Source: Geomonas subterranea (lineage in GTDB: Bacteria > Desulfobacterota > Desulfuromonadia > Geobacterales > Geobacteraceae). Taken from it: 64,000 bases of DNA. Positions within the stretch are counted from its first letter, which is position 1; every line of letters starts with the position of its first letter. Shown in pieces: positions 3,467 to 20,188 of this stretch. The notes beneath the pieces were generated by a model. It was not told where the DNA came from, made no database searches, and saw nothing but the letters and a program-made list of their open reading frames with translations. The position numbers and the translations under genes are program-made. Location: NCBI RefSeq assembly GCF_019063845.1, contig NZ_CP077683.1, positions 186,001-250,000 of the forward strand, written 5' to 3'.

Positions 3467-4672
3467 ATGCCCGTTTATACCTGTAAAATAGGGTCCTCCG
3501 ACGGCCGAATCCTCACCAAGGAACTCGATTCAGTCAGTGAAGCTCTGCTGCGTCAGAGTCTGGAGGAACAGGGGTATGTGGTATTCGAGGTCCGCAAAAA
3601 GCCTTTTCAGTTCCTGCTGGAGTCGGGAGTCGGCCGCAAGAAGATCGGAAACAAGGACCTGCTGCTGTTCAACCAGGAACTGCTTGTCCTCCTAAAGGCG
3701 GGGCTTCCCATCATCCAGGCGCTGGACACGATCCTCGAGTCCGGCAGCGGGAAACTGAGCGAGATCCTGAACGCGGTCAGGGAGGACATCAAGGGGGGGC
3801 TTGCGCTCTCCACTGCCTTGGAAAAGTACCCGAGGGTCTTCCCGCATCTGTACATCGCGTCGATCAGGGCCGGCGAGCGTACCGGGGACCTCCCCCAGAC
3901 CATCAGGCGCTACATCGCCTTTTTGAAACGGACCGAGGGGTTCCGCGGCAAGATCATCGGTGCCATGTTCTACCCCGCCATCCTGGTCGCCGTCGCCTTC
4001 CTGGCCATCACCGTACTGTTGATCTACGTGGTGCCTACCTTCAGCACCATCTACGCCGACTCCGGCAACGCGCTGCCGGTGCCGACCCAGATGCTGATCG
4101 GTTTCACCGGGTTCCTGCGGCACTACCTGCTCGTCTTCGTGGCGCTCATCTTCGTTGCCATGACCGTCTTCAAGCGCTGGAAGGAGACCGAGTCGGGGCG
4201 TTTCACGGTGGACGGCATGAAGATCAAGACCCCTTTTGTCGGCGCGGTGGTCATCCGTTACGCGCTGGCCGGCTTCACCCGGACCCTGGCCACTGTTCTT
4301 GGCTCCGGCATTCCCATCGTGGAGGCGATGCGGATGTCGGTCGGGACCTTGAACAACAAGGTGCTGGAACGGGGCGTGCTCCTGGCCGTGCACCGGGTCG
4401 AGGAGGGGAGCAAGCTCTCCACGGCGCTGGAAAGCATGAAACTGCTCCCCCCCCTGGCGCTGCGCATGCTCTCGGTGGGGGAGACCACCGGTGCCCTCGA
4501 GGAGATGCTCGGGGACATCTCGGACTACTTCGAGGACGAGATCGAGAGAAGCCTCCAGGTGCTCACGACCGCCATCGAGCCCGCCATCATGATCGTCATG
4601 GGGGTGGTCATCGGCGCCATTATCATCACCATGTACCTGCCGATCTTCAAGATCGCCAGCACCGTCAGCTAG
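3467..4672 (+). CDS. gspF: Type II secretion / type IV pilus inner-membrane platform protein (GspF/PilC family)
   Basis: Polytopic inner-membrane protein of 401 residues that couples the assembly ATPase to pseudopilus growth. An N-terminal soluble domain is followed by two T2SSF domains (about 67-190 and 270-392) sharing the pattern L(L)xxGxPIxxAL; compare LKAGLPIIQAL and LGSGIPIVEAM. Three membrane helices sit near residues 165-190, 215-235 and 370-393, as usual for the family. It is the first gene of a compact operon that runs through two pseudopilins, with only 7 bases before gspE. Start ATG 3467; no strong promoter consensus is visible in the 74-base gap upstream. Confidence 0.93.
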   Translation: MPVYTCKIGSSDGRILTKELDSVSEALLRQSLEEQGYVVFEVRKKPFQFLLESGVGRKKIGNKDLLLFNQELLVLLKAGLPIIQALDTILESGSGKLSEILNAVREDIKGGLALSTALEKYPRVFPHLYIASIRAGERTGDLPQTIRRYIAFLKRTEGFRGKIIGAMFYPAILVAVAFLAITVLLIYVVPTFSTIYADSGNALPVPTQMLIGFTGFLRHYLLVFVALIFVAMTVFKRWKETESGRFTVDGMKIKTPFVGAVVIRYALAGFTRTLATVLGSGIPIVEAMRMSVGTLNNKVLERGVLLAVHRVEEGSKLSTALESMKLLPPLALRMLSVGETTGALEEMLGDISDYFEDEIERSLQVLTTAIEPAIMIVMGVVIGAIIITMYLPIFKIASTVS

Positions 4673-4679
4673 AGGAAAC

Positions 4680-6401
4680 ATGCTGAAGCCGTTCAAAAGA
4701 CAGAGGCTGGGTGACATTCTCCTGGATCAGGGTGAGCTGACCAACGATCAGCTCGCCTATGCCCTGGACAAGCAGCAGAGCACCAAGGAGCGCCTGGGAG
4801 CGATCTGCATCGCGGACGGCCTCATAAGCGACGTGGTGCTGGCGCAGGCGCTGGCGCAGCAGTTCGGCATGGAGTTCATCGACCTCACCGGCGTGCGTCC
4901 GGACGAGTCGCTGTTCAATATCGTCCCCCCCGAGGTGATGTTCCGGTATCACTTCGTGCCCCTGGAACTGCAGGGGGACCTCCTGGTGGTCGCCATCTCC
5001 GACCCCACCGCCGTGCTGCAGCTGGACGAGATTTCCCTGCTCCTGGAGCGGCCGCTCACCTTCAAGGTGGCGGCGGATTCGGAGATCTCCCATCTCCTCA
5101 AGCGGGGTGAGGGGACCAGCCGCGTTTTGAAGGAAGTCTCCGAAGACTTCATGCTGCAACTGGTGACCGAGACCGAGAAGGGGGAGGAGATCCTCTCCGT
5201 CGAGAACGTCTCCGCCGACACCAGCCCCATCATCAAACTGGTCAACTCCACCATCCTGGACGCCCTCACCCGGCGCGCCTCCGACATCCACATCGAGACC
5301 GCCCAGGAAGGGGTCATCATCAAGTACCGCATCGACGGCGTGCTCTACAAGGCGACCGACCCGATCGACAACCACTTCCAGGGGCCGCTCATCTCCAGGC
5401 TCAAGGTCATGAGCGAACTGGACATCTCGGAACGGCGCATCCCGCAGGACGGCAGGTTCAAGGTCAGGATCGGCGCCAAGTCCATCGACTTCCGCGTCTC
5501 CATCATGCCCAGCGCCTTCGGCGAGGACGCGGTCATCCGTATCCTCGACAAGGAGAGCATCGCCAGCGACCTGCGCGGTCTCACCCTGGAGACGCTCGGC
5601 ATGGCCTCCCACGAGATCAAGCGTTTCAGGAAGATGATCAAGGAGCCCTACGGCATGGTGCTGGTCACCGGCCCCACCGGTTCCGGCAAGACCACCACGC
5701 TCTACGGCGCGCTCACCGAGATCCACACCGGCCTGGAGAAGATCATCACCATCGAGGACCCGGTCGAGTACGTCCTCTCCGGCATCACCCAGATCCCGGT
5801 CAACGAGAAGAAGGGGCTCACCTTCGCCCGCGGCCTGCGCTCGGTCTTGCGCCACGACCCGGACAAGATCATGGTCGGCGAGATCCGCGACTCGGAGACG
5901 GCCCAGATCGCCGTGCAGTCGGCGCTCACCGGTCACCTGGTCTTCACCACGGTGCACGCCAACAACGTCTTCGACGTGATCGGGCGTTTCACCCACATGG
6001 GGATCGACCCCTACAACTTCGTCGCCTGCCTGAACTGCGTCATGGCGCAGCGCCTGGTCCGCAAGATCTGCCCCTCCTGCAAAAGGGCCGTCACCGTCTC
6101 CGACGACGAACTGCGCGAGTCGGCCATCGACCCGGAGCGGGCCCGCGGCATCACCCTGTACGAGGCCCGCGGCTGCGACGACTGCAACGGCACCGGCTAC
6201 CGGGGCCGTTCCGCCATCGTGGAACTCCTCGACCTGAACGATGAGATCCGCGAGCTGATCATCTCCAAGGCACCCATCGCCGCCCTGAAAAAGGCCGCCA
6301 AGGCGGCGGGGACCATGTTCCTCAGGGAGTCGGCCGTGGCCAAGGTGCTGGCGGGCGAGACGACGATTAAGGAGATCAACCGTGTCACCTTTGTGGAGTA
6401 G
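4680..6401 (+). CDS. gspE: Secretion/pilus assembly ATPase (GspE/PilB family)
   Basis: Cytoplasmic hexameric ATPase of 573 residues that powers pseudopilus assembly. Order of parts: an N-terminal MshEN-type domain (about 1-150, beginning RLGDILLDQGELTNDQL), an N1E-like linker, then the RecA-like core. Walker A is GPTGSGKT at residues 331-338, followed by the Asp box and TIEDPVEY, and LRHDPDKIMVGEIRD as Walker B. A tetracysteine zinc site is complete: C464, C467, C499, C502. Length and domain set are those of functional GspE/PilB. It follows gspF by 7 bases and abuts the PilM-like gene. PilB versus GspE is decided here only by the neighbouring secretin and pseudopilins. Confidence 0.94.
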   Translation: MLKPFKRQRLGDILLDQGELTNDQLAYALDKQQSTKERLGAICIADGLISDVVLAQALAQQFGMEFIDLTGVRPDESLFNIVPPEVMFRYHFVPLELQGDLLVVAISDPTAVLQLDEISLLLERPLTFKVAADSEISHLLKRGEGTSRVLKEVSEDFMLQLVTETEKGEEILSVENVSADTSPIIKLVNSTILDALTRRASDIHIETAQEGVIIKYRIDGVLYKATDPIDNHFQGPLISRLKVMSELDISERRIPQDGRFKVRIGAKSIDFRVSIMPSAFGEDAVIRILDKESIASDLRGLTLETLGMASHEIKRFRKMIKEPYGMVLVTGPTGSGKTTTLYGALTEIHTGLEKIITIEDPVEYVLSGITQIPVNEKKGLTFARGLRSVLRHDPDKIMVGEIRDSETAQIAVQSALTGHLVFTTVHANNVFDVIGRFTHMGIDPYNFVACLNCVMAQRLVRKICPSCKRAVTVSDDELRESAIDPERARGITLYEARGCDDCNGTGYRGRSAIVELLDLNDEIRELIISKAPIAALKKAAKAAGTMFLRESAVAKVLAGETTIKEINRVTFVE

Positions 6402-7325
6402 GTGCCAGATATGCTAATGTCCGGGAAGAGTCTTGGGCTGGAACTCTCCGCCGCCGGGCTGAGCTTCGCCGTGGTGAGCGGCGGCAAGTCCCCTCTGGTC
6501 GAGGCCGGGCTGTCGCTGCCGTTCGCGCCCGGGATGCTGAGCCTGTCGCGCCGCGACCCCAATGTGACCGATCCCAAGGGGTTCGTCGCCCACCTCAAGG
6601 AGGCGCACCTGCGCCTTCTGACCAAGGAGCGGGGGGTGTGCCTGTCACTTCCCGACGCGGTGGGGCGCGTGGTGCTCCTCGAGCTGGAGGCCCGCTTCAA
6701 GAACCGCGAGGAAGGGCTGGATGTGATCCGCTGGAAGCTCAAAAAGAGCCTCCCCTTCGACATGGGAGCGGTCCACCTCGACTATCAGACCCTGGAGGAG
6801 AAGCAAAACGGCGCGGTTTCGCTGCTGGTCTCGCTCATCTCCCGCCCGGTGGTTCAGCAGTACGAGGAACTCGTCATCGAGGCCGGGCTCGAGCCCAAGC
6901 TGATCGACTTCACTTCCTTCAACCTCTACCGCCTCTACTCCCCGAGACTGGAGCTATCCGAGGACGGCGCCTTCGTCTGCTTCTACCAGGGGGCGATGAC
7001 CGTCCTCATCTTCAACGGCGGGGTGCTCAGCTTCTACCGGACCAAGGAGGGGGTGGCGGACGTGCAGCACCTGTTCCGCGAGGTGAACAGCTCCTTCCTG
7101 GTCTACAGGGACCAGAACCCCGGCCAGAGCGTCAGCGAGGTGTTTTGCGCCGCCTCCCACGACGACGCCGAGTCCTTCCGCGGCCTGGTGGCGGAGGCGA
7201 GCGGCCTGGAACCGGTGTTGCTCGACCTGGAGCGGATGCTCCGGCAGGGGCCGTCCCTGGGACTGGACCGTCCGGGGGTGCACGCGTTGGCCGGGGCGGT
7301 GGGCGCCGCGCTGAGGAGCCTGTGA
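6402..7325 (+). CDS. PilM-like (actin-fold) platform protein of the secretion system
   Basis: 307-residue cytoplasmic protein with the layout of PilM and the cytoplasmic part of GspL: an actin-like fold that docks on the assembly ATPase and binds the PilN partner. Indicative stretches are CLSLPDAVGRVV and the conserved block around IRWKLKKSLPF, which in PilM precedes the pairing surface, and AYQ-type LDYQ after it. It starts at GTG 6402, directly after the gspE stop; ATG at 6411 is an alternative. It ends one base before the PilN-like gene. A GspL would carry its own membrane helix and periplasmic domain; this protein does not, so the split PilM + PilN arrangement applies. Confidence 0.82.
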   Translation: MPDMLMSGKSLGLELSAAGLSFAVVSGGKSPLVEAGLSLPFAPGMLSLSRRDPNVTDPKGFVAHLKEAHLRLLTKERGVCLSLPDAVGRVVLLELEARFKNREEGLDVIRWKLKKSLPFDMGAVHLDYQTLEEKQNGAVSLLVSLISRPVVQQYEELVIEAGLEPKLIDFTSFNLYRLYSPRLELSEDGAFVCFYQGAMTVLIFNGGVLSFYRTKEGVADVQHLFREVNSSFLVYRDQNPGQSVSEVFCAASHDDAESFRGLVAEASGLEPVLLDLERMLRQGPSLGLDRPGVHALAGAVGAALRSL

Positions 7326-7326
7326 C

Positions 7327-7866
7327 ATGAAACTGACCATCAACCTGGCTACCAGGCGCTACGTCAACCTGCGTCAGCTCAACGCCGTCTTGGCCGCCTC
7401 CTTCATCGTCGTGGCGCTGCTGCTGGTGTACCTGGTGCGCGTGGTGGCCAACAACCAGGTCGAGATCAACAAGATCAAGGGGCAGAGTGCCGCCGCGAGC
7501 CGGGGTCCCGCCGGGGCCGCGCCGGTTCCCGCCGAGCAGATGAAGGCGCTGGAGTGGAACATAGCCTTCGCCAACACCCTCATCGACCGCAAGTCCACCA
7601 ACTGGCTCGCGCTCCTGGACAAACTGGAACTCGTGGTCCCCCCCGGGGTGGCCCTCACCCAGGTGGAGCCTTCGTTAGAGGACCCGCAGGCCCTGAAGCT
7701 GGGGGGCGTGGCGCTGACCTTTGAGAACCTGCGCTCCCTGGTGGAGAACATGGAGCAGTCCCCCAATTTTTCGGAGGTGTACCTTTTGGGCCAGAGCGAA
7801 CACAAGGTGGGGAAGACCCAGCGGGGCTACGGCTTCACACTCTCCTGCAAGGTCGGTAAGCGATGA
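7327..7866 (+). CDS. PilN-like inner-membrane platform protein
   Basis: 179-residue bitopic protein. A short cytoplasmic tail containing INLATRRYVN (the PilN motif that inserts into PilM) is followed by one membrane helix at about residues 20-41 and a periplasmic ferredoxin-like region. It overlaps the next gene by ATGA, so the PilM/N/O-type proteins are probably made in equal amounts. It is the counterpart of the periplasmic half of GspL. Assignment is by position, topology and the N-terminal motif; overall sequence is diverged. Confidence 0.8.
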   Translation: MKLTINLATRRYVNLRQLNAVLAASFIVVALLLVYLVRVVANNQVEINKIKGQSAAASRGPAGAAPVPAEQMKALEWNIAFANTLIDRKSTNWLALLDKLELVVPPGVALTQVEPSLEDPQALKLGGVALTFENLRSLVENMEQSPNFSEVYLLGQSEHKVGKTQRGYGFTLSCKVGKR

Positions 7867-8417
7867 ACTACCAGGTGCTACTCGACATGATCGCCGCCCG
7901 GCGCAAGTCCTTCGCTTTCATCGCCTTCCTGGCGCTACTGGCGATCGGGACGGAGGTGTACATCTCCGTCTATCAGCAGCCGGAACTGGAACGGGTTCAG
8001 CAGGCCTGGTTCGCCAAGCGCGACGCGCTGGCCCGCGGTGAGACGCAGGCCGATGCGACCAGGTACCAGCAGGGGGTGCGCGACCTTGAAGAGTTCCGCA
8101 AGCACCTCATCCCGAAGAAGGATTTCGTCGCGCTGCTGGGGCGCATTTACACCACGGCCAAGAGCAACTCGCTGGTTCTGTCGGGCATCAGCTACAAGCC
8201 GAGCAAGGAGAAGGTCAAAGGAACCCAGATGCTGACCTACGGCATCTCCTTCACCGTGGCCGGCAGGTACGCATCGGTGAAGAGCTTTCTGGCTGACCTG
8301 GCGCGCTACCGGGAGATGCTGGTCATAGACGCCCTCTCCCTGAGCAGCTCCAGCTCGACCGAGGAGAAGGTGAACCTCAAGATCCAGACCACGCTCTACA
8401 TGACGGAGGGGGCATGA
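7863..8417 (+). CDS. PilO/GspM-like inner-membrane platform protein
   Basis: 184-residue bitopic protein with one membrane helix at about residues 17-36, a coiled-coil-prone stretch to about residue 85 and a C-terminal ferredoxin-like domain. It sits in the PilO/GspM slot and would pair with the PilN-like protein to form the periplasmic scaffold. It overlaps both neighbours by four bases (ATGA), so it is tightly coupled. PilO versus GspM cannot be separated by sequence inspection alone. Confidence 0.75.
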   Translation: MNYQVLLDMIAARRKSFAFIAFLALLAIGTEVYISVYQQPELERVQQAWFAKRDALARGETQADATRYQQGVRDLEEFRKHLIPKKDFVALLGRIYTTAKSNSLVLSGISYKPSKEKVKGTQMLTYGISFTVAGRYASVKSFLADLARYREMLVIDALSLSSSSSTEEKVNLKIQTTLYMTEGA

Positions 8418-9079
8418 ATCGCCAGAAACTAGCGCTCTTCCTGCTCCTCGTCGTCCTGGCCGGGGCCGTCGTGTACGCTTTCGTGCGGACCCCGAGGCAG
8501 CAGCAGGTGGCCACGCTCAAGAACCAGCCCGGCGCCAAGGCCACCGTACTCAGAAAACAGCCGGGCGCCGCCCCGACCGCGGCGGCCGCGAACGGCGGCG
8601 CGCTGCACCTCGATCTTTTGCGGCGTGAACAGCCGGGCTTCAGCGGCTTCAGGCGCAACATATTCTCCCCCATCTTCAAGGACGAGGAGAAGCAGTCGGC
8701 CCTCAAGCTGCCGCCGCCACCGCCGCCGCCGAAGAAACTGCCCCCCCTGCCGCAACCGCTGCCGGGGGCGTCGCCGCAAGCTCCCCCCCCGCCTCCTCCT
8801 CCGCCGACGCAGGAGCAGCTGGACGACGCCGAACTGGGCAAGTTCGTGTTCATCGGATTCCTGAAGAAAGGGGCGGAGAAGACCGTGTTCCTCTCCAAGG
8901 GGGGCGAGATCTTCCTGGCCAAGAAGGGAGGCCAGGTGGGCCCGAGGTTCCAGGTCTCCAACGTGACCGATGACGCCATCACCATCAAGTCGCTGCAGAG
9001 CGACCGGCAACTGGTGATTCCGCTGGTGGAGAACAGGTCGCTCAGCATCCGTCGTCCCAGCCCCAGTCCCAGGCCTTAA
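8414..9079 (+). CDS. Proline-rich GspC/PilP-like periplasmic connector
   Basis: 221 residues: one N-terminal membrane helix (about 6-24), an Ala-rich stretch, then a strikingly Pro-rich linker (about 97-135) with two runs of eight prolines. A C-terminal beta domain from about residue 140 (KFVFIGFLKKGAEKTVFLSK) looks like the homology-region domain of GspC or PilP that touches the secretin N0 domain. The linker is long enough to span much of the periplasm. It is coupled to the PilO-like gene by ATGA overlap and lies 11 bases before the secretin gene, the usual place for GspC/PilP. The role is inferred from position and layout. Confidence 0.7.
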   Translation: MNRQKLALFLLLVVLAGAVVYAFVRTPRQQQVATLKNQPGAKATVLRKQPGAAPTAAAANGGALHLDLLRREQPGFSGFRRNIFSPIFKDEEKQSALKLPPPPPPPKKLPPLPQPLPGASPQAPPPPPPPPTQEQLDDAELGKFVFIGFLKKGAEKTVFLSKGGEIFLAKKGGQVGPRFQVSNVTDDAITIKSLQSDRQLVIPLVENRSLSIRRPSPSPRP

Positions 9080-9090
9080 GGAGCAACTTC

Positions 9091-11757
9091 ATGCATAGAC
9101 TAAGATCGATCTCAACCCTGATATTGCTGACCGTGGCCCTTTCCGGCTGTGCGGCGGGGCGTACCGCCTTCAGCAAGGCAGAGCAGCTCGAGCGCGAGGG
9201 GAACCTGGACGCCGCGCTGGTCAAGTATGCCGAAGTCGCCTCTAAGCACCCCGATGTCGGCGAGTACCGGGTGAAGCTGATCAACGTCACCGAGGCCGCC
9301 GCCAAGGTGCACTTCAAGAGGGGCGAGGCGTTCTTCGAGAAGAAGAACTACGACGAGGCGTTGCGGGAGTTCGAGAGCGCCTATGCCATGGACCCGACCT
9401 ACGTCGAGGCGAAGGCCCGTGGTGATCAGGCGCTCAAGATGAGAAACGCCCTGACCTACCTCCAGGAGGGGGCGGACTTCGAGCGGGATCACAAGCTGCG
9501 CGAGGCGATGACCTCCTACCAGCACGTACTCCAGTTCCAGCCGGACAACAAGGCCGCCAGGGAGGGGCTCGACCGCATCCTGGCCGGCAAGAAGCAAAAG
9601 CTGGACGGTTTCGAGTTGAACCTCAAGTCGACCAAACCGATCACCTTGAAGTTCAAGGACGCCAAGCTCAAGGACATCTTCAACATCCTCACCCAGCTCT
9701 CCGGGATCAACTTCGTCTTCGACGAGGGGGTGAAGGACGTGAACGTATCGCTGCACCTGGAAAACGGCAGCTTCCAGCAGGCCATGGAGCTCCTCACCGG
9801 GATGCAGAAACTGGACAAGAAGGTGCTCAACGAGAGCACCATCATCATCTATCCCAAGACTCCTGACAAGATCAAGCAGTACGAGGAACTCTTCGTCCAG
9901 ACCTTCTACCTGAACAAGCTCGACGCGAAGAAGGCGGTGAACCTGGTGCGCACCATGCTCCAGGTGAAGAAGATCTACGTGAACGAGGAGGCCAACGCCC
10001 TCGTGATCCGCGACACCCCCGAAGTGGTGGAGGTCGCGCGCAAGATCCTCGAGGCCAACGACGTCCCCGACGCCGAGGTGCTCCTCGAGGTCGAGGTGTT
10101 CGAGCTTTCCAAGAAGGATTCGGAGACTTTCGGGATGCTCCTCTCCCGGTACGCGACCTCGCTCGGGGTGACCGCCCCCGGCACGACGACGTTTCTCTCT
10201 GACAGCCTGAGTTCGACCACGACGACATCCTCGACGACTGCCGGCACGCCGACCTCGACTCCCACCAACATCAGCAACCTGCTGAACGCGTTCAAGGTGA
10301 GAGGCTACAACGGCTGGCTGACGGTGCCGAGCGCGACCTTCAACTTCGGCAAGACCCTCTCCAACGGCGAGACGCTCTCCAACCCGAAGATCAGGGTGAA
10401 GAACCGCGAGAAGGCCAAGTTCAACGTCGGTACCCGCGTGCCGATCACCACGACCTCTTCCACCTCCACCGGCACCAGTGTCAACGTGCAGTACGTGGAC
10501 GTCGGGGTCAAGGTGAACGCCGAGCCGACCATCCAGTTGAACAACGAGGTATCCATCAAGCTCGGTCTTGAGGTGAGCTCGATCCTGCAAAGGGATACCA
10601 TCGGCACCGATCAGGCGACCACCGTGGTCACCATCGGCACCAGGAACCTCGATACCGTGCTCTCGCTCAAGGACGGTGAGACCAGCATCATCGGCGGCCT
10701 GATCCAGAAGAGCAAGACCAACAGCAAAAACAAGGTGTTCCTCCTGGGGGATATCCCGATCCTCGGTACGCTCTTCTCCAACACCGGGGACTCGAACGAC
10801 AAGAGCGAACTGTTGCTGGCCATCACACCGAGGATCGTGCGCGGCGTGACCGTCCCCGAGAACGACGTGGCCGCCTTCTGGTCCGGGCGTGAGGATGAGC
10901 CCTCCACCGACAAGCCGTACAAGTCCTTCATCGAGCCCGAATTCGCCGATACCGCCGCGCCGGCCAAGGGTGCTCCCGCAAAGGCAGCTCCCGCCAAGGC
11001 GGCTCCGGTCAAGAGGATCGCTCCGGCCGCAGCCGCGCCGGCCGCTGCCGCCCCTGGCGCGCCCGCCGCACCGGCTGTCCCGGCTGTTCCCGGTGCTCCC
11101 GCCGCTCCGGGTGCCGCCGCTCCGGCAGCAGAAGCAGTTGCTGTTCCGGGTGCCCCGGCACCGGCCACCGCCGCTGAGGACGAAGATGGCGTCGAGGTGA
11201 CCGAGGGCGCCGAGGCTCCGGCTCCGGCGACGACCACCATCCCGGCCGAGACGCCCGCCCCGGCCGAGCCCGGGGCTGCTGCCAACGCCGCTGCCGCCGC
11301 AAAGGCCGCGACTCCGGCTCCGGCCAAACCGGCCGCCTCCCCGGTCCCGCTGGAGAAGGCACTGCTCGCGCTGAGCCTTCCCGCCTCGGTGAAGTTGAGC
11401 GACCAGTTCACGGTACAGATCAACGCGTCCGGATTGAAGGACCTGGAGAAGGCGGTGCTGGTGCTGAGCTATGACCCCAAAATCCTCGAGGTGGTGTCGC
11501 AGACCGAAGGGGCGCTGCTCAAGGAGAACGGCAAGCCCTCGACCTTCCAATCCTTCGCCGACAAGAAGAAGGGTGAAATCTGGATGTCCGGCAGCAAGAG
11601 CGAGGGGAGCGTTGGTAACGGCGTGCTGGCGCAGGTGACCTTCAAGGCCATCGGACAAGGAAGCACCCCGCTTTCCTTCTCGAACACGAGCTTTACCCAG
11701 AAGGGGGGAGGGACGATCGCCGTGACCCCGTTCAAGTCAGTAGTGGAGGTACAGTAG
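9091..11757 (+). CDS. gspD: Lipoprotein secretin (GspD/PilQ family) with TPR N-terminus and C-terminal cohesin domain
   Basis: Outer-membrane channel of the secretion operon, 888 residues. Order of parts: lipoprotein signal peptide ending LSGC (lipidated C20); TPR-like helices (about 30-170); an N0/STN-like domain near 185-245; an N1-type domain near 265-330; the secretin core, with VPSATFNFGKTLSNGETLSNP and ending at LLLAITPRIVRG near residue 586. Then comes an Ala/Pro-rich low-complexity linker (about 622-750) and a final cohesin-like beta domain (about 757-888, around KLSDQFTVQINASGL and VLSYDPKILEVV). Cohesin domains bind dockerin-type modules, and such a tail is unusual on a secretin. 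Start ATG 9091 has AAGGAGCAA upstream. A similar atypical system (OxpG-type) is known in Geobacter sulfurreducens; homology to it is recalled, not tested. Confidence 0.92.
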   Translation: MHRLRSISTLILLTVALSGCAAGRTAFSKAEQLEREGNLDAALVKYAEVASKHPDVGEYRVKLINVTEAAAKVHFKRGEAFFEKKNYDEALREFESAYAMDPTYVEAKARGDQALKMRNALTYLQEGADFERDHKLREAMTSYQHVLQFQPDNKAAREGLDRILAGKKQKLDGFELNLKSTKPITLKFKDAKLKDIFNILTQLSGINFVFDEGVKDVNVSLHLENGSFQQAMELLTGMQKLDKKVLNESTIIIYPKTPDKIKQYEELFVQTFYLNKLDAKKAVNLVRTMLQVKKIYVNEEANALVIRDTPEVVEVARKILEANDVPDAEVLLEVEVFELSKKDSETFGMLLSRYATSLGVTAPGTTTFLSDSLSSTTTTSSTTAGTPTSTPTNISNLLNAFKVRGYNGWLTVPSATFNFGKTLSNGETLSNPKIRVKNREKAKFNVGTRVPITTTSSTSTGTSVNVQYVDVGVKVNAEPTIQLNNEVSIKLGLEVSSILQRDTIGTDQATTVVTIGTRNLDTVLSLKDGETSIIGGLIQKSKTNSKNKVFLLGDIPILGTLFSNTGDSNDKSELLLAITPRIVRGVTVPENDVAAFWSGREDEPSTDKPYKSFIEPEFADTAAPAKGAPAKAAPAKAAPVKRIAPAAAAPAAAAPGAPAAPAVPAVPGAPAAPGAAAPAAEAVAVPGAPAPATAAEDEDGVEVTEGAEAPAPATTTIPAETPAPAEPGAAANAAAAAKAATPAPAKPAASPVPLEKALLALSLPASVKLSDQFTVQINASGLKDLEKAVLVLSYDPKILEVVSQTEGALLKENGKPSTFQSFADKKKGEIWMSGSKSEGSVGNGVLAQVTFKAIGQGSTPLSFSNTSFTQKGGGTIAVTPFKSVVEVQ

Positions 11758-11778
11758 CCCCTAGGGGCTCGCGCCGCG

Positions 11779-12270
11779 ATGTGGAAGATCCTTGCAGATA
11801 AAAGGGGGCTCAGCCTGATCGAGATGGTGGTGACCATGGTCATTCTCACCATGCTCGCCTCGCTGATCATCCCCTCGGCCCAGATGGCCTCCAAGCGGAC
11901 CAAGGAACTCGAGCTGAGAAGGAACCTGCGCGAGATCAGGACCGCCATAGACGAGTACAAGAAGAACTACGACAAGGCGCTGTCGGACCAGAAAACGGTG
12001 CAGGTGCTTAACGCGACCGGTTACCCGAAGACCCTGGACCTGCTGGTGGAGGGGGACGATTTCGGCGGGCTGACCAAGGAGAAGAAGAAATTCCTGCGCC
12101 GCATCCCCGCCGACCCTTTTCACAAGGCTCAAGCAGGGGAACCCGCGTGGGGGATGCGCTCTCACGCCGACGAGCATGACAGCACCACCTGGGGAGGAGA
12201 GGACGTCTTCGATGTCTACTCCCTGAGCGACGGTGTCGCTATTGACGGTACGAAATACAAGGACTGGTGA
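11779..12270 (+). CDS. Type II secretion pseudopilin, GspG-like (first of two)
   Basis: 163-residue prepilin-like protein. A short leader ends in KRG, followed by LSLIEMVVTMVILTMLASL: prepilin peptidase cleavage is expected after G10, with the conserved Glu at +5 of the mature protein, then a hydrophobic helix and a globular tail. It is built into the periplasmic pseudopilus. The tail (for instance FLRRIPADPFHK, WGMRSHAD, DVFDVYSLSDG) matches the conserved C-terminal GspG region. It overlaps the second pseudopilin by four bases. Position 1 of the mature protein is Leu instead of the usual Phe, which some family members tolerate. No prepilin peptidase gene is in the window. Confidence 0.9.
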   Translation: MWKILADKRGLSLIEMVVTMVILTMLASLIIPSAQMASKRTKELELRRNLREIRTAIDEYKKNYDKALSDQKTVQVLNATGYPKTLDLLVEGDDFGGLTKEKKKFLRRIPADPFHKAQAGEPAWGMRSHADEHDSTTWGGEDVFDVYSLSDGVAIDGTKYKDW

Positions 12271-12689
12271 ACCTCATGTCTAAGAGGATACTGAAAAATC
12301 AACGGGGCTTTACGCTGATAGAGCTGATGATTGTGGTCACCATCATCGGCATCCTTGCGGCCATCAGCGCGCCCAATTACCAGTGGGGTATCATCAGGGC
12401 GCGCGAGGCGGTGCTGCGGGAAGACCTGTACACGATGCGCTCCACCATCGACCAGTACTACGCCGACCAGGGGAAATATCCCGATACGCTGCAGGAACTG
12501 GTCGACAACAAGAACAGGTACCTGAGGGAGATACCCAAGGATCCTTTCACCAAGTCCAAGGATACCTGGGTGGTCACCGCCCCTCCCGCGACCGACACCC
12601 CTTCCGAGGGGGGGAGCGGCGGGGTCTACGACGTGCACAGCGGTTCCACGCTGGTTGGCAGCGACGGCAAGCCGTACAACGAGTGGTAG
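12267..12689 (+). CDS. gspG: Type II secretion pseudopilin, GspG-like (second of two)
   Basis: 140-residue prepilin-like protein with a textbook signal: QRG followed by FTLIELMIVVTIIGILAAI, with cleavage expected after G14, Phe at +1 and Glu at +5. The C-terminal part holds the GspG-type pattern YLREIPKDPFTKSKDTW and VYDVHSGS. It starts at GTG 12267 inside the TGA of the previous pseudopilin (GTGA overlap); ATG 12276 is an alternative. It is the last gene of the secretion block, 19 bases before ftsE. The two tandem pseudopilins differ clearly in sequence, so they are likely to have distinct roles (major and minor). The OxpG pseudopilin of Geobacter sulfurreducens is the likely relative. Confidence 0.92.
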   Translation: MNLMSKRILKNQRGFTLIELMIVVTIIGILAAISAPNYQWGIIRAREAVLREDLYTMRSTIDQYYADQGKYPDTLQELVDNKNRYLREIPKDPFTKSKDTWVVTAPPATDTPSEGGSGGVYDVHSGSTLVGSDGKPYNEW

Positions 12690-12708
12690 TCACGAGGCTT
12701 ACAGACAG

Positions 12709-13431
12709 ATGATCCAAATGCACAACGTTTTCATGTCGTACCAGCCGGAATCGAGCGCGCTGGCAGACATCAACCTCAAGATCCCCAAAGGGGATTTTGT
12801 TTTTTTGACCGGACAGTCGGGGGCGGGGAAGTCGACGCTCTTGAAGCTGATCTACGCCGACCTCACCCCGACCCGCGGCCAGGTGCTGATCGACGGGGTC
12901 AACCTGACCAGGCTCTCCCGCTCGCAGGTGCCCCTGTTGCGTCGCTCCATCGGGGTGGTGTTCCAGGACTACAAGCTGCTCCCCAACCGGACCGTCCTGG
13001 AGAACGTGGCCATAACCCTCGAGGTGCTTGGGTGGGGCAAGCGTGACATCGGCAAGAAGGTGTACCACATCCTTAAACGGATGGGGATCGAGGACAAGAT
13101 CAACGCGACCCCCTTGAGGCTTTCCGGCGGCGAGCAGCAGCGCGTGGCGCTGGCACGCGCCCTGGTGAACGACCCGAAGATCCTGGTGGCCGACGAACCC
13201 ACCGGCAACCTCGATGACGAGAACAAGGAGGCCATCCTCTCCATCTTCAAGGAGGCCAACAACCGCGGGACCACCGTGGTGGTGGCTACCCACGACCGCC
13301 GCGTGATCGAGAACTCCCACCGCAGGGTGATCAGGCTGGACAAGGGGAGCATCGTGCAGACCCCCGATTTCCTGGTCGGCCAGCCGGCCCCGGCGGCCCC
13401 CGTGCTGGAGGTGCCCGATGTCCAAGGGTAA
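12709..13431 (+). CDS. ftsE: Cell division ABC transporter ATP-binding protein FtsE
   Basis: Cytoplasmic ATPase of the FtsEX complex, which transmits ATP-driven changes through FtsX to periplasmic activators of cell-wall hydrolases. 240 residues. Walker A GQSGAGKST at 35-43, Q-loop VFQDYKLL, signature LSGGEQQR, Walker B ILVADEPTGNLD and switch His in ATHDR are all present. ATG 12709 is preferred over an upstream in-frame GTG because it opens the conserved ABC domain and follows GAGG at about 12694. It overlaps ftsX by 14 bases. A C-terminal extension of about 20 Pro/Ala/Val-rich residues goes beyond the usual FtsE end. Confidence 0.96.
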   Translation: MIQMHNVFMSYQPESSALADINLKIPKGDFVFLTGQSGAGKSTLLKLIYADLTPTRGQVLIDGVNLTRLSRSQVPLLRRSIGVVFQDYKLLPNRTVLENVAITLEVLGWGKRDIGKKVYHILKRMGIEDKINATPLRLSGGEQQRVALARALVNDPKILVADEPTGNLDDENKEAILSIFKEANNRGTTVVVATHDRRVIENSHRRVIRLDKGSIVQTPDFLVGQPAPAAPVLEVPDVQG

Positions 13432-14365
13432 CAACGGGGCGGTCCGCCCCAAACTCGAGCAGGAAGGTTTCTTCGGCAGGTTCTCCTATTTCACCCGCCG
13501 CGCCCTGGCGAACCTGCGCCAGAACGTCTTCGTCAGTGCCGTCACGGTCGGGACCATCGCGCTGGCGCTTTTGATCGCCTCGCTGTTTCTGCTGGTCTAC
13601 GTGAACCTCGAGGGGATGGCGGAGGGGTGGAGCGACAAGGTGCAGGTGACCGCGTATTTCGACCAGGAACCCGCGCCCCTCGCCGTCGCCGCGATGAAGG
13701 GGAGGGTGCAGGCCATAGCAGGGACCTCCAAGGTGGTCTTCGTGAGCCAGGCCGAGGCGGAGAAGCGGCTGAGAAGCCGGCTGAAAGGGCAGGAGTCCCT
13801 CCTTGAGGGGATCTCGACGGACGTGCTCCCGGCTTCGCTGGAGATCAGGCTGGACCGCGACCACCGCGACACGGAGTCGGTGACCGCCTACGTCAGGAAG
13901 CTGAAGCAGATCCAGGGGATCAGCGAGGTCCAGTACGGCGAGGAGTGGGTGAAGCGCTTCAACTCCTTCATGAACCTGTTCCGGCTCATGGGGGCGCTTT
14001 TGGGGAGCTTTCTGACCATCACGGTGCTCTTCATCGTCTCCAACACCATCAAGCTCACCATCTACGCCAGAAAGGACGAGCTGGAACTGTTGGGACTGGT
14101 AGGAGCGACCCGCTTCTTCATCAAGGCGCCTTTCCTGATCGAGGGGATACTGCAGGGGGCCGCAGGGGCGGTGATCTCGCTTCTGGCGCTTTCGGGGTGC
14201 TACTTCGCCTTCCTCAAAAACGCGGGCGACTTCCTCGGCATCAACCCGGCTTCGGCCGGGCTCTCCTTCCTCCCCGCCACCCACCTGGCCGGCGTGGTCC
14301 TGGGAGGGGTGCTGCTCGGGTTCATCGGCAGCGCGACCTCGCTCAAGAGGTTCATAAACGTCTAG
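13418..14365 (+). CDS. ftsX: Cell division protein FtsX (permease-like)
   Basis: 315-residue membrane partner of FtsE. After a cytoplasmic N-terminus there is a first membrane helix (about residues 43-67), a periplasmic domain (VQVTAYFDQEP onward), and three more helices in the C-terminal half (around 190-210, 235-260 and 288-308), the FtsX topology. The region ARKDELELLGLVGATRFFI between helices is the typical FtsX/MacB coupling segment. It overlaps ftsE and lies one base before the EnvC-like gene. No hydrolytic activity is expected of FtsX itself; the periplasmic loop recruits the EnvC-type activator. Confidence 0.95.
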   Translation: MSKGNNGAVRPKLEQEGFFGRFSYFTRRALANLRQNVFVSAVTVGTIALALLIASLFLLVYVNLEGMAEGWSDKVQVTAYFDQEPAPLAVAAMKGRVQAIAGTSKVVFVSQAEAEKRLRSRLKGQESLLEGISTDVLPASLEIRLDRDHRDTESVTAYVRKLKQIQGISEVQYGEEWVKRFNSFMNLFRLMGALLGSFLTITVLFIVSNTIKLTIYARKDELELLGLVGATRFFIKAPFLIEGILQGAAGAVISLLALSGCYFAFLKNAGDFLGINPASAGLSFLPATHLAGVVLGGVLLGFIGSATSLKRFINV

Positions 14366-14366
14366 C

Positions 14367-15566
14367 ATGCGCCACTTTACCGCCACAACGCTGCTCGTCC
14401 TCTCCCTCCTGGCCCCCGCGCTTTGCCGCGCCGGCGCCAACGAGGAGTTGCAGAACATCAAGAAGCAGATCAAGGAAAAGAACCGGCTCATCTCCAAGAC
14501 CCAGAAGGTGGAGACCAAGGTCTCCGGGGAACTGGTGCAGATCCAGAAGTCGCTGACCGAGAAGCAGTCGAGCCTCAACACCCTGGGGCGCGATCTCGCC
14601 GGTGTGGAGAAGGGGATCGACAAGACCCACGACGACATCGAGCGCGAACGTCAGGAGGCGGAGCGCAAGAAGGCGCAGATAAACCGCCGCATGGCCGCGC
14701 TCTACAAGGGGGGGGACACCGGCAACCTGCGCGTCTTCTTCTCTTCAGAGTCGTTCCCGCAGATGAGCGAGAACCTGCGCTACATGCGCAGCATCCTGGA
14801 GAACGACAAGAAGCTGTTCCAGCAGTACAACGAGAACCTGGAGCGGCTGAACCATCTGAAGGAGCGCCTGGAGCAGGAGGCGCTCAAGAAGGAAGGGCTG
14901 CGCCGTTCCATAGAGGCGAAAAAGCGCGAGATCGAGCAGGAAAAGAGCCGCAAGGCCACCTACCTGGTCAAGGTGCGCCAGGACAAGCAGGGGTACCTCG
15001 CGTCGCTCAAGGAGCTGCAGGCCAACGCGAGCCGCCTGCAGAGCATGATTCAAAGGCTTGAAGCCAAAAGTAGAAAAGCGTATAGTTCCAAAGGTCGTCC
15101 CGGCAAGGTGAGCGAGCCGGCGCGTCCCGGCGTGACCGCCAAGGCCACCCCGGTCCCCAACCAGGGGCTTGGTGCACAGAAAGGGCGGCTCTCACTGCCG
15201 GTGCGCGGCAACATCGTCGACCGTTTCGGTAGGCATAAACACCCCGATTTCGATTCCTTTACTGTCAGTAACGGGATCTCAGTGGCAGCACCCGCCGGCA
15301 GTGCCATTCACGCGATCTATGACGGCGAAGTGATTTTTGCCGACTATTTCAAAGGCTATGGTAATATGATCATCGTCGATCATGGCGATGGGTTCTTCAG
15401 TCTTTACGCCCACGCCTCGTCCATAGCCAAGAGGGTCGGCGCGAAGGTGTCGAAGAACGATGTCCTTGCCAGCGTGGGCGACCTTGACTCAACCAAGGGG
15501 CCCATGCTCTATTTCGAGATCAGATACCAGGGGAAACCGGTGGATCCGTCCCCCTGGTTCAGATAA
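14367..15566 (+). CDS. EnvC-like murein hydrolase activator (degenerate LytM/M23 domain)
   Basis: 399-residue exported protein: signal peptide ending near RAGA (about residue 20), a long coiled coil (about 22-235), and a C-terminal LytM domain (about 275-399). The LytM zinc ligands are missing: the expected HxGxD region reads HPDFDSFTVSNG without the proper spacing, and the final HLH motif reads MLYFE. This degeneracy matches EnvC, which does not cut peptidoglycan itself but activates amidases under control of FtsEX. The ftsX stop and this start are separated by one base. The relevant amidase is not in the window. NlpD-like activity is an alternative label, but the FtsEX linkage favours EnvC. 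Confidence 0.88.
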   Translation: MRHFTATTLLVLSLLAPALCRAGANEELQNIKKQIKEKNRLISKTQKVETKVSGELVQIQKSLTEKQSSLNTLGRDLAGVEKGIDKTHDDIERERQEAERKKAQINRRMAALYKGGDTGNLRVFFSSESFPQMSENLRYMRSILENDKKLFQQYNENLERLNHLKERLEQEALKKEGLRRSIEAKKREIEQEKSRKATYLVKVRQDKQGYLASLKELQANASRLQSMIQRLEAKSRKAYSSKGRPGKVSEPARPGVTAKATPVPNQGLGAQKGRLSLPVRGNIVDRFGRHKHPDFDSFTVSNGISVAAPAGSAIHAIYDGEVIFADYFKGYGNMIIVDHGDGFFSLYAHASSIAKRVGAKVSKNDVLASVGDLDSTKGPMLYFEIRYQGKPVDPSPWFR

Positions 15567-15599
15567 GCAGGGTATCGCAACAAAATCCAGGGAGGCAAA

Positions 15600-16934
15600 A
15601 TGTTCAAGGGCAGCAAATTCAAGAAGACAACCCTGTTTGTCACTACCGTTGCACTGCTGACGCTCGTCATCGCGTTCGGTGTGCAACGCAGATGCGCCGC
15701 CCAGGGGGGCGGCAACGACTACCAGTCCATCGAGCTGTTCACCGACGTGCTCGCCATCGTGAAGAAGAGCTACGTCGAGGAAGTGGACACGAAGAAGCTG
15801 GTCTACGGCGCCATCAACGGCATGCTCACTTCGCTCGACCCGCACAGTTCCTTCATGCCCCCCGACACCTACAAGGAGATGAAGATCGACACCAAGGGCG
15901 CCTTCGGCGGCCTGGGCATCGAGATCACCGTGAAGGAAGGGATCCTGACCGTCATCTCCCCGATAGAGGACACGCCGGCGTTCCGGGCGGGGATCAAGGC
16001 GGGCGACCAGATCCTCAAGATCGATGACAAGTTCACCAAGGACCTGACCATAACCGACGCGGTGAAAAGGATGCGCGGCGTGAAGGGGACCAAGGTCACC
16101 CTGACCATCATGCGTGAAGGGTTCGACAAGACCAAGGAGTTCGTCCTGGAGCGCGACATCATCCAGGTCAAGAGCGTGAAGTACAAGGTTCTCGACGACG
16201 GCTACGGCTACATCCGGGTCGCCCAGTTCCAGGAGAAGACGGACGACGACCTGGAGAAGGCGCTGCAGGCCCTTCAGGCGGACAAGAAGCAGCTCAGGGG
16301 CCTGGTGCTGGACCTCAGGAACGACCCCGGCGGGCTCCTCGACCAGGCGGTCCGCGTCTGCGAGCACTTCGTCCCGGAAGGGAAGCTGATCGTGTACACA
16401 GAGGGGCGCGAGAAGGACTCCCAGATGCGCTTCACCTCGAGGAAGAGCCACAAGCAGGGTGAATACCCCATCGTGGTGCTGATCAACAGCGGCTCGGCCT
16501 CCGCCTCGGAGATCGTTGCAGGGTGCCTGCAGGATCACAAGCGCGCGGTCATCATGGGGACCCAGAGCTTCGGCAAGGGTAGCGTGCAGACCATCATCCC
16601 GCTTTCCGACAACTCGGGCCTGAGGCTCACCACCGCCCGCTACTTCACCCCGAGCGGCCGCTCCATCCAGGCGAAGGGGATCACCCCGGACATCGTCGCG
16701 GAGCGGGTGGAGATCGCAGCGACCAGCGAGAAACGCGAAGGGATGCACATCCGCGAGAAGGACCTGGAGAACCACTTCGAAGGTGACAAGAAGGACGATC
16801 AGGACGAGAAGAAGGTGAAGCAGGCTCCCTACAAGACCGATGAGATGATCAAAAACGACTCCCAGGTGCTGCGCGCCCTCGATCTCCTCAAGGGGTGGGA
16901 CATCCTGAAGAGCATGGGAAAACTTCCTTCTTAA
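15600..16934 (+). CDS. ctpA: Carboxy-terminal processing protease (S41 family, CtpA/Prc-like)
   Basis: 444-residue periplasmic serine protease that trims or degrades exported proteins from the C-terminus. A signal anchor (about residues 8-30) is followed by the S41 N-terminal helices (VEEVDTKKLVYGAINGML), a PDZ domain (about 85-170, GGLGIEITV onward) and the protease core. The catalytic Ser lies in NSGSASASEIVAG and the catalytic Lys in GTQSFGKGSVQT. AGGGAGG lies six bases upstream of ATG 15600. It is the last gene of the ftsEX-envC group before a terminator. In other bacteria CtpA-type proteases turn over cell-wall hydrolases or their activators, which fits the neighbourhood, but the substrate here is not known. 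Confidence 0.95.
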   Translation: MFKGSKFKKTTLFVTTVALLTLVIAFGVQRRCAAQGGGNDYQSIELFTDVLAIVKKSYVEEVDTKKLVYGAINGMLTSLDPHSSFMPPDTYKEMKIDTKGAFGGLGIEITVKEGILTVISPIEDTPAFRAGIKAGDQILKIDDKFTKDLTITDAVKRMRGVKGTKVTLTIMREGFDKTKEFVLERDIIQVKSVKYKVLDDGYGYIRVAQFQEKTDDDLEKALQALQADKKQLRGLVLDLRNDPGGLLDQAVRVCEHFVPEGKLIVYTEGREKDSQMRFTSRKSHKQGEYPIVVLINSGSASASEIVAGCLQDHKRAVIMGTQSFGKGSVQTIIPLSDNSGLRLTTARYFTPSGRSIQAKGITPDIVAERVEIAATSEKREGMHIREKDLENHFEGDKKDDQDEKKVKQAPYKTDEMIKNDSQVLRALDLLKGWDILKSMGKLPS

Positions 16935-16966
16935 GGGAGGCGAGGTTCCGCACATGGCTGTAAAAG

Positions 16967-16996
16967 AAAGGGGTGGCTCAGCCATCCCTTTTTTTT
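16967..16996 (+). terminator. Rho-independent terminator after ctpA
   Basis: An 11-bp stem with one G-T wobble (GGGGTGGC paired with GCCATCCC, extended by A-T pairs) around a TCA loop, followed by a T-run at 16989-16996. It closes the long secretion-FtsEX-CtpA unit. Confidence 0.88.
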
Positions 16997-17030
16997 ACGC
17001 TTCTGCCTTGTGTCATACCCGGCGGCTTGC

Positions 17031-17059
17031 TTGACAGTATCCGCGGTGCTCAGTAAAGT
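17031..17059 (+). promoter_or_regulatory. Sigma-70 type promoter of the cohesin/dockerin-like protein gene
   Basis: TTGACA (17031-17036) and TAAAGT (17054-17059) with a 17-base spacer, 50 bases upstream of the ATG at 17109. Together with the terminator just before it, this shows that the next gene is its own transcription unit. Confidence 0.7.
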
Positions 17060-17108
17060 AAAAAGCCGGTCCGTTCCTGCAGTTATTCCCACAGGCACCG
17101 AGGTCATC

Positions 17109-18425
17109 ATGATCAGGCAGACGCAGTGGCTGCTTTTCCTCTTACTCCTTCTGACCGCTACTCCCGCTTTTGCCTTGCCGACCCTCTCCATATCCTCACC
17201 CGCTTCAGACGGCGTCTTCGTGCTGCGCGGCGACCAGATGGACGGGGTCGCGGGCCTGGACATCAGCATCGCCTATGATTCGGCCACGCTTGCCAACCCA
17301 CGGGTGACCATGGGGAGGCTGGCGCAGGGGATGATGAGCGCCGCCAACCCCGGCAACCCTGTACGGATCGCCATCGTCGGCACGCGCGCCCTTACCGGCG
17401 GGGGGATCGTCGCCAGCATCGCCTTCGACCGGACCGGCAACTCTCCCGGAATCGTCACCCTGGTCACCGGCACCCTCATCGACGCCAACGGCAGGAAGGT
17501 CGCCATGGCGCAGCCGCTGATCGTCAATCCCTCAACGGTGGTCGCCGCGACTGGAAGTGGCGCCGGAGCGGCGCAGAGCGCGCAGGAGACCAAGAGCGAG
17601 ACCGCCCAGGTAAGCGGGGGGGGCATGGTCCCGCGCTCCCTGCCGGTCGGGGGGACCGTCACCATGCCCGGACAGGAAACGGCGGCCGGGCAGGAGGTGA
17701 TAGCCGCCCCAGAGGGCGCGGTGGTGGTCGAGACCCCCTCCAGCCGTGAGGGGGCGCCGGCGGTCAGGAAACGGCTGCCCACCAAAAAGGCGCAGCTGGA
17801 AGGCGAACAGGCGCCGCTGGACCGTGAGGAGAACCCGCCGCAGGAGAGGGAGAATCCGGCACCCGAGGCTGCGAAGCCCATGCCGCAACTGACCCGGCCG
17901 GTGATGCTCACCAGCGTCCTGGACAGCTTCAAGACCTTTCAGGGCGAGCGTACCCCCGCCAACCTGATCGCCCTTTTTCGTCAACCCCCTCCCGTTCCCT
18001 ACAATCAGCTCCCACCGGTGGCCATCGCCGACGGCAAGGCCACGGTGACTCTGGTGATCGCCATGGCGACAGGCGACGTCACCCCCAGCTTCACCTTCAG
18101 CGATTGCACCTATGTCTCGCACAGACGCACGGAGGCCGGGTGGGAGATCCAGGCCAGGCCGAAGCGGGACGTGGTAAAGGCGAGCGTAACCATGCTCTAC
18201 GGCGGCTTGCGCCAGGAGTTCCCGTTGACGGTGGCGCCCAAGGCCGCACTGGTGCAGGGGAGGTCCCGCCAGGTCAAGGAGAGCGACTTCCAGCGCTTTT
18301 TGAAGGAGCGGGGGACGCCGGCGCGCCCGCGTTTCGACCTCAACAAGGATGGCCGCCGCGACTACGTCGACGACTACATCTATGCCGCCAACTACCTGGC
18401 TCAAGCCGGAGCGCAGGTGCGTTGA
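17109..18425 (+). CDS. Exported protein with N-terminal cohesin-like domain and C-terminal dockerin-like repeat
   Basis: 438 residues. A signal peptide (hydrophobic run to about residue 22, ending TPAFA) is followed by a cohesin-like beta domain (about 25-140: GDQMDGVAGLDISIAYDS, IVASIAFDRTGNSPG), then a disordered Pro/Glu/Ala-rich linker (about 155-265). A second small beta domain follows (about 290-390). The C-terminus is a single dockerin-type calcium loop, DLNKDGRRDYVDD at residues 410-422, with acidic or Asn residues at positions 1, 3, 5, 9 and 12. ATG 17109 is chosen because it opens the signal peptide. It lies next to an operon whose secretin also ends in a cohesin domain, which suggests a binding partner or adaptor; this is inference. 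The role is unknown. Confidence 0.8.
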   Translation: MIRQTQWLLFLLLLLTATPAFALPTLSISSPASDGVFVLRGDQMDGVAGLDISIAYDSATLANPRVTMGRLAQGMMSAANPGNPVRIAIVGTRALTGGGIVASIAFDRTGNSPGIVTLVTGTLIDANGRKVAMAQPLIVNPSTVVAATGSGAGAAQSAQETKSETAQVSGGGMVPRSLPVGGTVTMPGQETAAGQEVIAAPEGAVVVETPSSREGAPAVRKRLPTKKAQLEGEQAPLDREENPPQERENPAPEAAKPMPQLTRPVMLTSVLDSFKTFQGERTPANLIALFRQPPPVPYNQLPPVAIADGKATVTLVIAMATGDVTPSFTFSDCTYVSHRRTEAGWEIQARPKRDVVKASVTMLYGGLRQEFPLTVAPKAALVQGRSRQVKESDFQRFLKERGTPARPRFDLNKDGRRDYVDDYIYAANYLAQAGAQVR

Positions 18426-18541
18426 CGGCTGAACGGGTGACAGTTCCGGAGCGGTGGACAGGATGCCCCCTTCGGCGCGGGTCGAGGGGGGCATCGTCGT
18501 AGCTGCCGCCGGACGTGCGGTGGGGCGGTGCCAGGTTTTAG

Positions 18542-18570
18542 TTGCCGCGACGGCGCCTGTACGGTATACC
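18542..18570 (+). promoter_or_regulatory. Candidate promoter of gabD
   Basis: TTGCCG (18542-18547) and TATACC (18565-18570) with a 17-base spacer, 46 bases before the gabD start. The rest of the gap 18426-18541 shows nothing I recognise. Confidence 0.45.
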
Positions 18571-18616
18571 AAAAGTCCGCCGCGGATCAGTCGGCTCATG
18601 CGCCGGGAGGAAGCAT

Positions 18617-20074: not shown

Positions 20075-20109
20075 ACACCTGAACTGAATCCACAGACAGA
20101 CGTTACTCC

Positions 20110-20180: not shown

Positions 20181-20188
20181 AATTTTAG

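Follow-up and report, generated by a model that had tools for sequence, protein, structure and literature searches.

Why should the secretin of a type II secretion system end in a cohesin, and what might that socket hold? The question is raised by a 64,000-nucleotide stretch of DNA from Geomonas subterranea (the window; bases 186001-250000 of a 4,991,523-base, one-contig genome), in which the gene of a cohesin-tailed secretin (9091-11757) is followed by that of an exported protein (17109-18425), here termed the adaptor, that combines a cohesin with a putative dockerin. In the original prediction, the cohesin of the secretin or of the second protein was proposed to grip dockerin-type tags, such that secreted proteins stay attached to the cell surface where the channel opens. 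Our analysis suggests that cargo may be retained or sorted through plug-and-socket contacts at the export channel. The arrangement that we favor, tentatively and at a little under an even chance, is a cohesin-dockerin docking system on a Pul/OxpG-type type II system, in which the adaptor would bridge the secretin and its cargo at a periplasmic dock.

The secretin is laid out as follows.

9091..11757, + strand: secretin gene, encoding 888 amino acids (aa) with an LSGC lipoprotein-type N-terminus, TPR, STN, Secretin_N and Secretin domains, a linker and a cohesin
10966..11355, + strand: Ala/Pro-rich linker (secretin residues 626-755, 65% Ala+Pro)
11356..11757, + strand: C-terminal cohesin domain of the secretin (Pfam match at residues 770-872)

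Within the encoded protein, Pfam identifies Secretin (140.8 bits, residues 424-584), Secretin_N (38.3 bits) and STN (31.6 bits), the profiles of a type II secretin, while the NCBIfam models TIGR02517 (GspD) and TIGR02515 (PilQ) remain under their cut-offs. Beyond the linker, the tail scores 39.0 bits against the Pfam Cohesin family PF00963 (E 1.2e-9; curated cut-off 24.1) and is the only match to this family in the genome at E ≤0.001. An AlphaFold2 model based on ten homologous tails (pLDDT, the predicted local distance difference test score, 94.1) has the predicted beta-sandwich fold of a cohesin, and all 50/50 rows among the Foldseek matches listed are titled cohesin or cohesin-containing scaffold (best E 2.0e-10). 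The C-terminus of the secretin is a cohesin on a long linker, and the earlier description of a 130-residue Ala/Pro linker with a cohesin-like end holds in profile and predicted fold alike. At the other end of the protein, the LSGC lipobox-like start and TPR repeats (window 9091-9600) resemble a fused pilotin.

The adaptor consists of a signal peptide, a cohesin, a linker, an alpha/beta domain and a divergent dockerin.

17109..18425, + strand: exported cohesin-dockerin protein (adaptor), 438 aa
17181..17528, + strand: N-terminal cohesin (residues 25-140)
17532..17948, + strand: linker (residues 142-280), of low model confidence and disordered-looking
17961..18239, + strand: conserved alpha/beta domain (residues 285-377), function not assigned
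18246..18407, + strand: C-terminal dockerin-like repeat pair (residues 380-433)
18336..18374, + strand: intact calcium loop DLNKDGRRDYVDD (residues 410-422)

By itself, the 438-aa sequence has no match in Pfam or NCBIfam, and the two Pfam assignments anticipated for it, Cohesin (PF00963, no match over the cut-off) and Dockerin type I (PF00404, no match), are not obtained. The cohesin is instead recognized through the family: 14 of 24 members aligned (alignment A1) match Pfam Cohesin at E ≤1 (best 9.7e-9), several frames of adaptor-family size score above the PF00963 cut-off, the PDB entries picked up by the 24-sequence profile include cohesins (2xdh at the top, E 3.2e-5), and hhalign relates the adaptor N-terminus to the secretin tail with a probability of 94.6. 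Foldseek with the predicted structure of the adaptor itself likewise returns cohesins as top matches (2xdh, E 5.0e-7); this model has a mean pLDDT of 60, rising to about 71-85 in the N-terminal domain, and a full-length predicted template modeling score (pTM) of 0.33. The adaptor N-terminus is a cohesin fold, as had been proposed. Two further ideas about this protein were dropped: that its middle domain is another cohesin (hhalign probability 0.2) and that it docks onto itself, the pTM making the model untrustworthy for domain placement.

At the adaptor C-terminus, the ligand positions 1, 3, 5, 9 and 12 of the DLNKDGRRDYVDD loop are D, N, D, D and D in all 24 aligned sequences, the window's included, in agreement with the dockerin pattern of calcium ligands that had been seen in this EF-hand-like loop. 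In the first repeat, 4/24 sequences keep a complete loop and one further sequence misses just the last ligand; the loop of the window's protein is eroded. In the adaptor model, the DLNKDGRRDYVDD loop lies outside the two beta-rich domains, next to predicted helices at 391-399 and 419-432 (pLDDT 56-67 there), and thus burial in a globular domain is not indicated. Four of the 24 family members match PF00404 at E ≤1 (best 0.014), and a profile of the dockerin region finds 15 PDB sequences at E ≤1, including EF-hand proteins as well as at least four that carry a dockerin. We regard the adaptor C-terminus as a probable divergent dockerin, by pattern and place and not by curated score. The idea that further proteins of the same genome share it was dropped, as a 16-row profile matched the adaptor alone at E ≤1. 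Across the order that holds Geomonas and Geobacter (141 genomes; the other 136 of the 277 genomes of the class serve as an outgroup), this dockerin type is nearly always found in proteins of adaptor size, as judged by open-frame length.

A second dockerin type forms a 70-residue tag at the C-termini of other proteins. In the G. subterranea genome, PF00404 at E ≤10 gives a single signal, at the extreme end of a large open reading frame (ORF) outside the locus, which scores 25.3 with its neighbors in frame and 14.1 for the ORF (the tag at L139 scores 21.3 against a cut-off of 22.9). A two-row tag profile (E ≤0.1) gives 2 matches in this genome and 2 to 18 per genome in 19 Geomonas genomes, 111 in total. 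Of these 111, 30 were inspected as loci, many of them orthologues of one protein, and the stop follows the tag after 0 to 3 residues in each. With a refined profile of 17 rows (A4), the tag is present in 101/141 genomes of the order. Of 17 sequences matched in the PDB, the top nine are dockerin chains at individually weak E values (0.004 to 0.072), which points to homology. The NCBIfam family of GC-type dockerin domain-anchored proteins, NF041540, is matched weakly by 13/17 tag sequences at E ≤1 (best 0.0038), and the G. subterranea tag falls under its cut-off (17.6 versus 29 bits) and is not a member. An attempt to treat the adaptor dockerin and the tag as one family was abandoned, since hhalign covers one 12-residue loop only (probability 53). 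Of the proposal that cohesins of this locus grip dockerin tags, the existence of tagged proteins is supported; their tag differs in type from the adaptor dockerin.

In 20 more widely drawn tag loci (hand-picked from the listing rather than at random, four of them seen before), the tag lies within 2 residues of the C-terminus in 19 and directly after the signal peptide in one, and about 14 of the proteins have clear signal-like N-termini by a rough rule judged by eye. The tagged proteins scanned contain many immunoglobulin (Ig)-like domains, a MauG-like domain (below cut-off, in two) or a multicopper oxidase domain. In two tagged proteins (L195:428-2122 and L197:130-2118), the N-terminus consists of three repeats with 32-41% identity (E about 1e-6 to 2e-5) to the first ~50 residues of the window's GspE; a single weakly hydrophobic segment and Ig-like domains come next. 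The sole near-cut-off Pfam match of these repeats is DUF4388, not MshEN. Such GspE-N-like repeats on tagged proteins point to a link to the secretion machine itself, and the hydrophobic segment, if it is a membrane anchor, would place the dockerin in the periplasm.

Several other proteins were noted beside these. In G. subterranea, L146:866-3811, ~3 kb from a tagged gene, encodes GspE-N-like triple repeats, a hydrophobic segment and Ig-like domains with no dockerin, and the large tagged beta-propeller (DUF5122) protein of L102:1969-7025 (C1 about 292468-297524) is split across two overlapping frames, and thus its reading frame is interrupted in the assembly. A 943-aa Geomonas protein (L114:9812-12640) carries a Pfam cohesin and a C-terminal classical dockerin tag in a single chain. 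Small Cys-Gly-rich lipoproteins adjoin tagged or adaptor genes (L156:8580-9161, L159:10465-11040, L111:15967-16440 and L146:8052-8480) and are possibly anchors. The notion that these CGGGGG lipoproteins are surface cohesins was set aside: the two scanned have no Cohesin match, and identities to the first of six aligned are 21-27%.

The association between adaptor and secretin is visible in gene order. In 9/9 named loci of relatives, the adaptor gene is preceded by that of a cohesin-tailed secretin, and the two genes are on the same strand and at most 14 kb apart in at least 41 of the 93 order genomes with both listed, their match starts being separated by 6.4 to 10.1 kb in the linked genomes. 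Linkage was assessed from 111 cohesin rows with open frames of at least 650 aa and 143/148 adaptor-dockerin rows (five weak or partial ones excluded), a listed subset of the matches, and thus 41/93 is a lower bound. The three components are also nested in their distribution. PF00963 cohesins are present in 119, the adaptor family in 107 and the tag in 101 of the 141 order genomes; cohesins are found in all 107 adaptor-positive and in 98/101 tag-positive genomes, and 97/101 tag-positive genomes have the adaptor family. These tables and their Fisher values ignore kinship, a PF00963 match may stem from the adaptor's own cohesin, and loss of the tail and loss of the whole system are indistinguishable in the counts. 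A strict set of 101 genomes leaves out 25 that are less than 90% complete (including G140, whose completeness is not known) and 15 of genus g27 (G135 being placed there by number only, and both G135 and G140 scored negative as the listings imply). In this set, the five cohesin-negative genomes (G018, G059, G061, G068 and G099, from four genera) all lack both adaptor and tag. The scenario in which the two genes fail to co-occur across relatives is thus not what we observe.

Adaptor copies that are unlinked to a secretin give a view of possible cargo. Among 27 such copies (7 + 20, hand-picked from the listings and not random), an OmpB-like multicopper oxidase gene lies near the adaptor paralogue in 8/27 loci; the oxidase itself ends in the tag in four of these (L156, L157, L159 and L160) and is untagged in the other four (L103, L104, L105 and L154). 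A tagged ORF is present in the stretch in 7/27 loci, and an oxidase or a tagged ORF in 11/27. Oxidase domains were assigned by Pfam for L103 and L156 and by BLAST to L103 for the remaining oxidases.

A number of observations weigh against the proposed docking system. The untagged oxidases belong to three genomes of Geomonas and to a further genus of the same family, and OmpB-like here denotes multicopper oxidase domains and mutual similarity, without comparison to OmpB. The G. subterranea genome has two tags only, one of them on the gene with the interrupted frame. Of the cohesin-positive order genomes, 12/119 lack the adaptor family and 21/119 the tag, 10/107 adaptor-positive genomes lack the tag, and among the matches listed 52/93 genomes have no secretin-adaptor linkage, in part because of short contigs. 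In the outgroup, PF00963 cohesins are found in 82/136 genomes (201/277 class-wide), the tag in 5/136 and the adaptor-type dockerin in 9/136 (E ≤0.01), and none of the 16 outgroup loci inspected has an adaptor match within the 18 kb examined. The cohesins at these loci are all secretin tails (16/16); the upstream genes are the same, and ftsE and/or ctpA genes follow in 14/16. The outgroup dockerin counts cover these two types, cohesins being present in 5/5 tag-positive and 7/9 adaptor-type-dockerin-positive genomes. The secretin cohesin is thus older than the tag and adaptor dockerins and mostly works without them. It is a class-wide feature whose first ligand need not be either one, and in the outgroup it may be the partner of some other dockerin type; the adaptor and tags seem to have been acquired later, mainly within one order.

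The same observations lend substance to a reading in which there are two separate things: the secretin cohesin would be an ancient domain of this type II system that serves structure or assembly and binds some unrelated ligand, and the adaptor and tagged proteins would constitute an extracellular cellulosome-like scaffold that is merely exported by the system. The wealth of outgroup cohesins next to hardly any tag or adaptor dockerins fits this account, the tail sequences are alike in the 16 outgroup secretins, suggesting a ligand of their own, and among the matches listed 102/143 copies of the adaptor-type dockerin are unlinked to any secretin. We nonetheless consider it unlikely, if deserving of real weight, as the neighborhood is kept in at least 41 genomes, the components are nested in occurrence and jointly absent within the order, and the GspE-N-like repeats on tagged proteins point to the machine itself.

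In the docking system that we favor, the adaptor dockerin would plug into the secretin cohesin, and the C-terminal dockerin of the cargo would be gripped by the adaptor cohesin or directly by that of the secretin. By analogy with solved secretins, the secretin cohesins would lie in the periplasm on 130-residue tethers, and the dock would concentrate cargo there, at the channel entrance. In those structures, the secretin is periplasmic apart from its top rim and the C-terminal S-domain binds pilotins, according to the parts of that paper available to us (PMC6532946). Since the C-termini of secretins seem to be periplasmic in the structures known, a periplasmic dock is the most likely arrangement, and by this analogy a loading dock is likelier than retention at the surface. 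The original proposal, in which the secretin cohesin keeps dockerin-tagged proteins outside at the mouth of the channel, would suit the surface-type character of the tagged proteins scanned, which are mostly Ig-rich, in some cases with oxidase domains, and often have signal-like N-termini. It is at odds with the periplasmic position of secretins below the top rim and with L195 and L197, whose GspE-like N-terminus and single weakly hydrophobic segment imply a periplasmic dockerin, and we consider it very unlikely.

The C-terminal dockerin would then be part of the sorting signal. The specific claim that it is a type II sorting signal, with tagged cargo caught in the periplasm by secretin cohesins, directly or via the adaptor, and then loaded, is one that we put forward as doubtful rather than probable. 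Whether the adaptor is needed as a bridge bears on another account, in which the secretin cohesin binds the cargo tags by itself and the adaptor is one further client, or else a plug by which the sockets are filled or regulated. Tag and PF00963 do occur together in 98/101 tag-positive genomes of the order and 5/5 of the outgroup, and the tag is a more classical dockerin than that of the adaptor. However, the tag tracks the adaptor family about as closely (97/101), and the adaptor paralogues beside cargo-type genes are a better fit for a bridge; direct docking without one thus strikes us as distinctly improbable.

The genes around the secretin and adaptor are consistent with a Pul-type system.

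3467..9079, + strand: upstream type II secretion genes (gspF-like, gspE, pilM-, pilN-, pilO- and pilP/gspC-like)
11779..12689, + strand: two pseudopilin genes (11779-12270 and 12267-12689; Pfam N_methyl)
12655..16934, + strand: ftsE-, ftsX-, envC- and ctpA-like genes between secretin and adaptor, named by sequence reading
17031..17059, + strand: promoter-like site before the adaptor gene (10/12 matches; the match alone is no proof of function)

The gspE product matches Pfam T2SSE and MshEN, the PilP match is weak (E 0.026), and the other upstream names (gspF-, pilM-, pilN- and pilO-like) were given from sequence and order, with no profile behind them. The second pseudopilin (12267-12689) scores 20.4 bits against T2SSG (cut-off 21) and is OxpG-like by its place, without comparison to OxpG. 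Six genes intervene between the secretin and the adaptor gene, one more than first counted, and the promoter attributed to the latter has a counterpart in the site at 17031-17059, although scans of this kind prove nothing. In Geobacter sulfurreducens, secretion of OmpB needs the Pul system, and Geobacter pul genes lie near cell-division genes, according to the portion of the source consulted (PMC3543383, citing Mehta 2006). The locus in the window fits this, with ftsE- and ftsX-like genes adjoining it.

In two other genera (L110 and L111, with Pfam for L110 only), a BTAD-domain (SARP-like) gene lies between the protease gene and the adaptor, which we infer to be the same gene as GSU1771; in the available part of one report, pulGPQF are among the upregulated genes of a G. 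sulfurreducens mutant without this SARP-type regulator (PMC10599522). Past the adaptor (window 17109-23691), there are FdhD-like and aconitase-like genes, so named by sequence reading (Pfam supports FdhD in L106 only); in L106 and L110, too, one of the two is found next to adaptor copies. In genus g27, a multihaem cytochrome gene with Ig-like domains (L113:11135-13519) lies within a type II locus with two secretin genes.

When compared to cellulosome scaffolds, including adaptor scaffoldins, the predicted system is alike in having a socket on the anchor, a socket-plus-plug adaptor and a plug on the cargo, with the same folds. It differs in that the anchor is a Gram-negative outer-membrane secretin, the cargo examined is Ig-rich or oxidase-like, and the pairing is predicted. 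A cellulosome, in the sense of a multi-cohesin scaffoldin with dockerin-bearing glycoside hydrolases, is not what the G. subterranea genome encodes, with its one PF00963 match. No catalytic glycoside hydrolase domain is found in the tagged proteins or parts of them scanned, which do contain accessory domains named after such enzymes. Elsewhere, one genome (G102) has nine cohesin matches, among them one in a 6542-aa open frame (C510, about 281-1870) that is a possible true scaffold.

Also close is the Pul/OxpG type II system of Geobacter, with which the locus shares its cell-division-type neighbors and, here, OmpB-like oxidases near adaptor paralogues; the parts of those descriptions available to us do not mention a cohesin tail, adaptor or tag. 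Recognition of substrates by the GspC PDZ domain or through an Ig fold in type II secretion, as described in the consulted section of another paper (PMC12369372), is similar in that a domain of the machine selects cargo in the periplasm, whereas a C-terminal dockerin and a secretin cohesin would do so here. Non-cellulosomal cohesin and dockerin proteins of anaerobic methanotrophic (ANME) archaea and syntrophic sulphate reducers (PMC9012536, PMC10553843) likewise place both modules outside cellulose degradation, and the accessible portions of these two papers mention no link to a secretin. More generally, the partial texts on cohesins, dockerins and type II secretion that were consulted contain no cohesin-tailed secretin or dockerin-tagged type II cargo that we could find, and an earlier review may mention it; domain databases probably already display the secretin-cohesin architecture.

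How type II systems choose their cargo is an open question, and a cohesin-bearing secretin, an adaptor and a removable 70-residue dockerin would make it testable by one-domain changes. Were the sorting-signal reading true, electroactive bacteria would possess a type II secretion signal that is both defined and portable. The proposed system would also carry cohesin-dockerin pairing over to the export machinery of a Gram-negative and be relevant to how relatives of Geobacter deliver oxidases and adhesins to the cell exterior to reduce metals.

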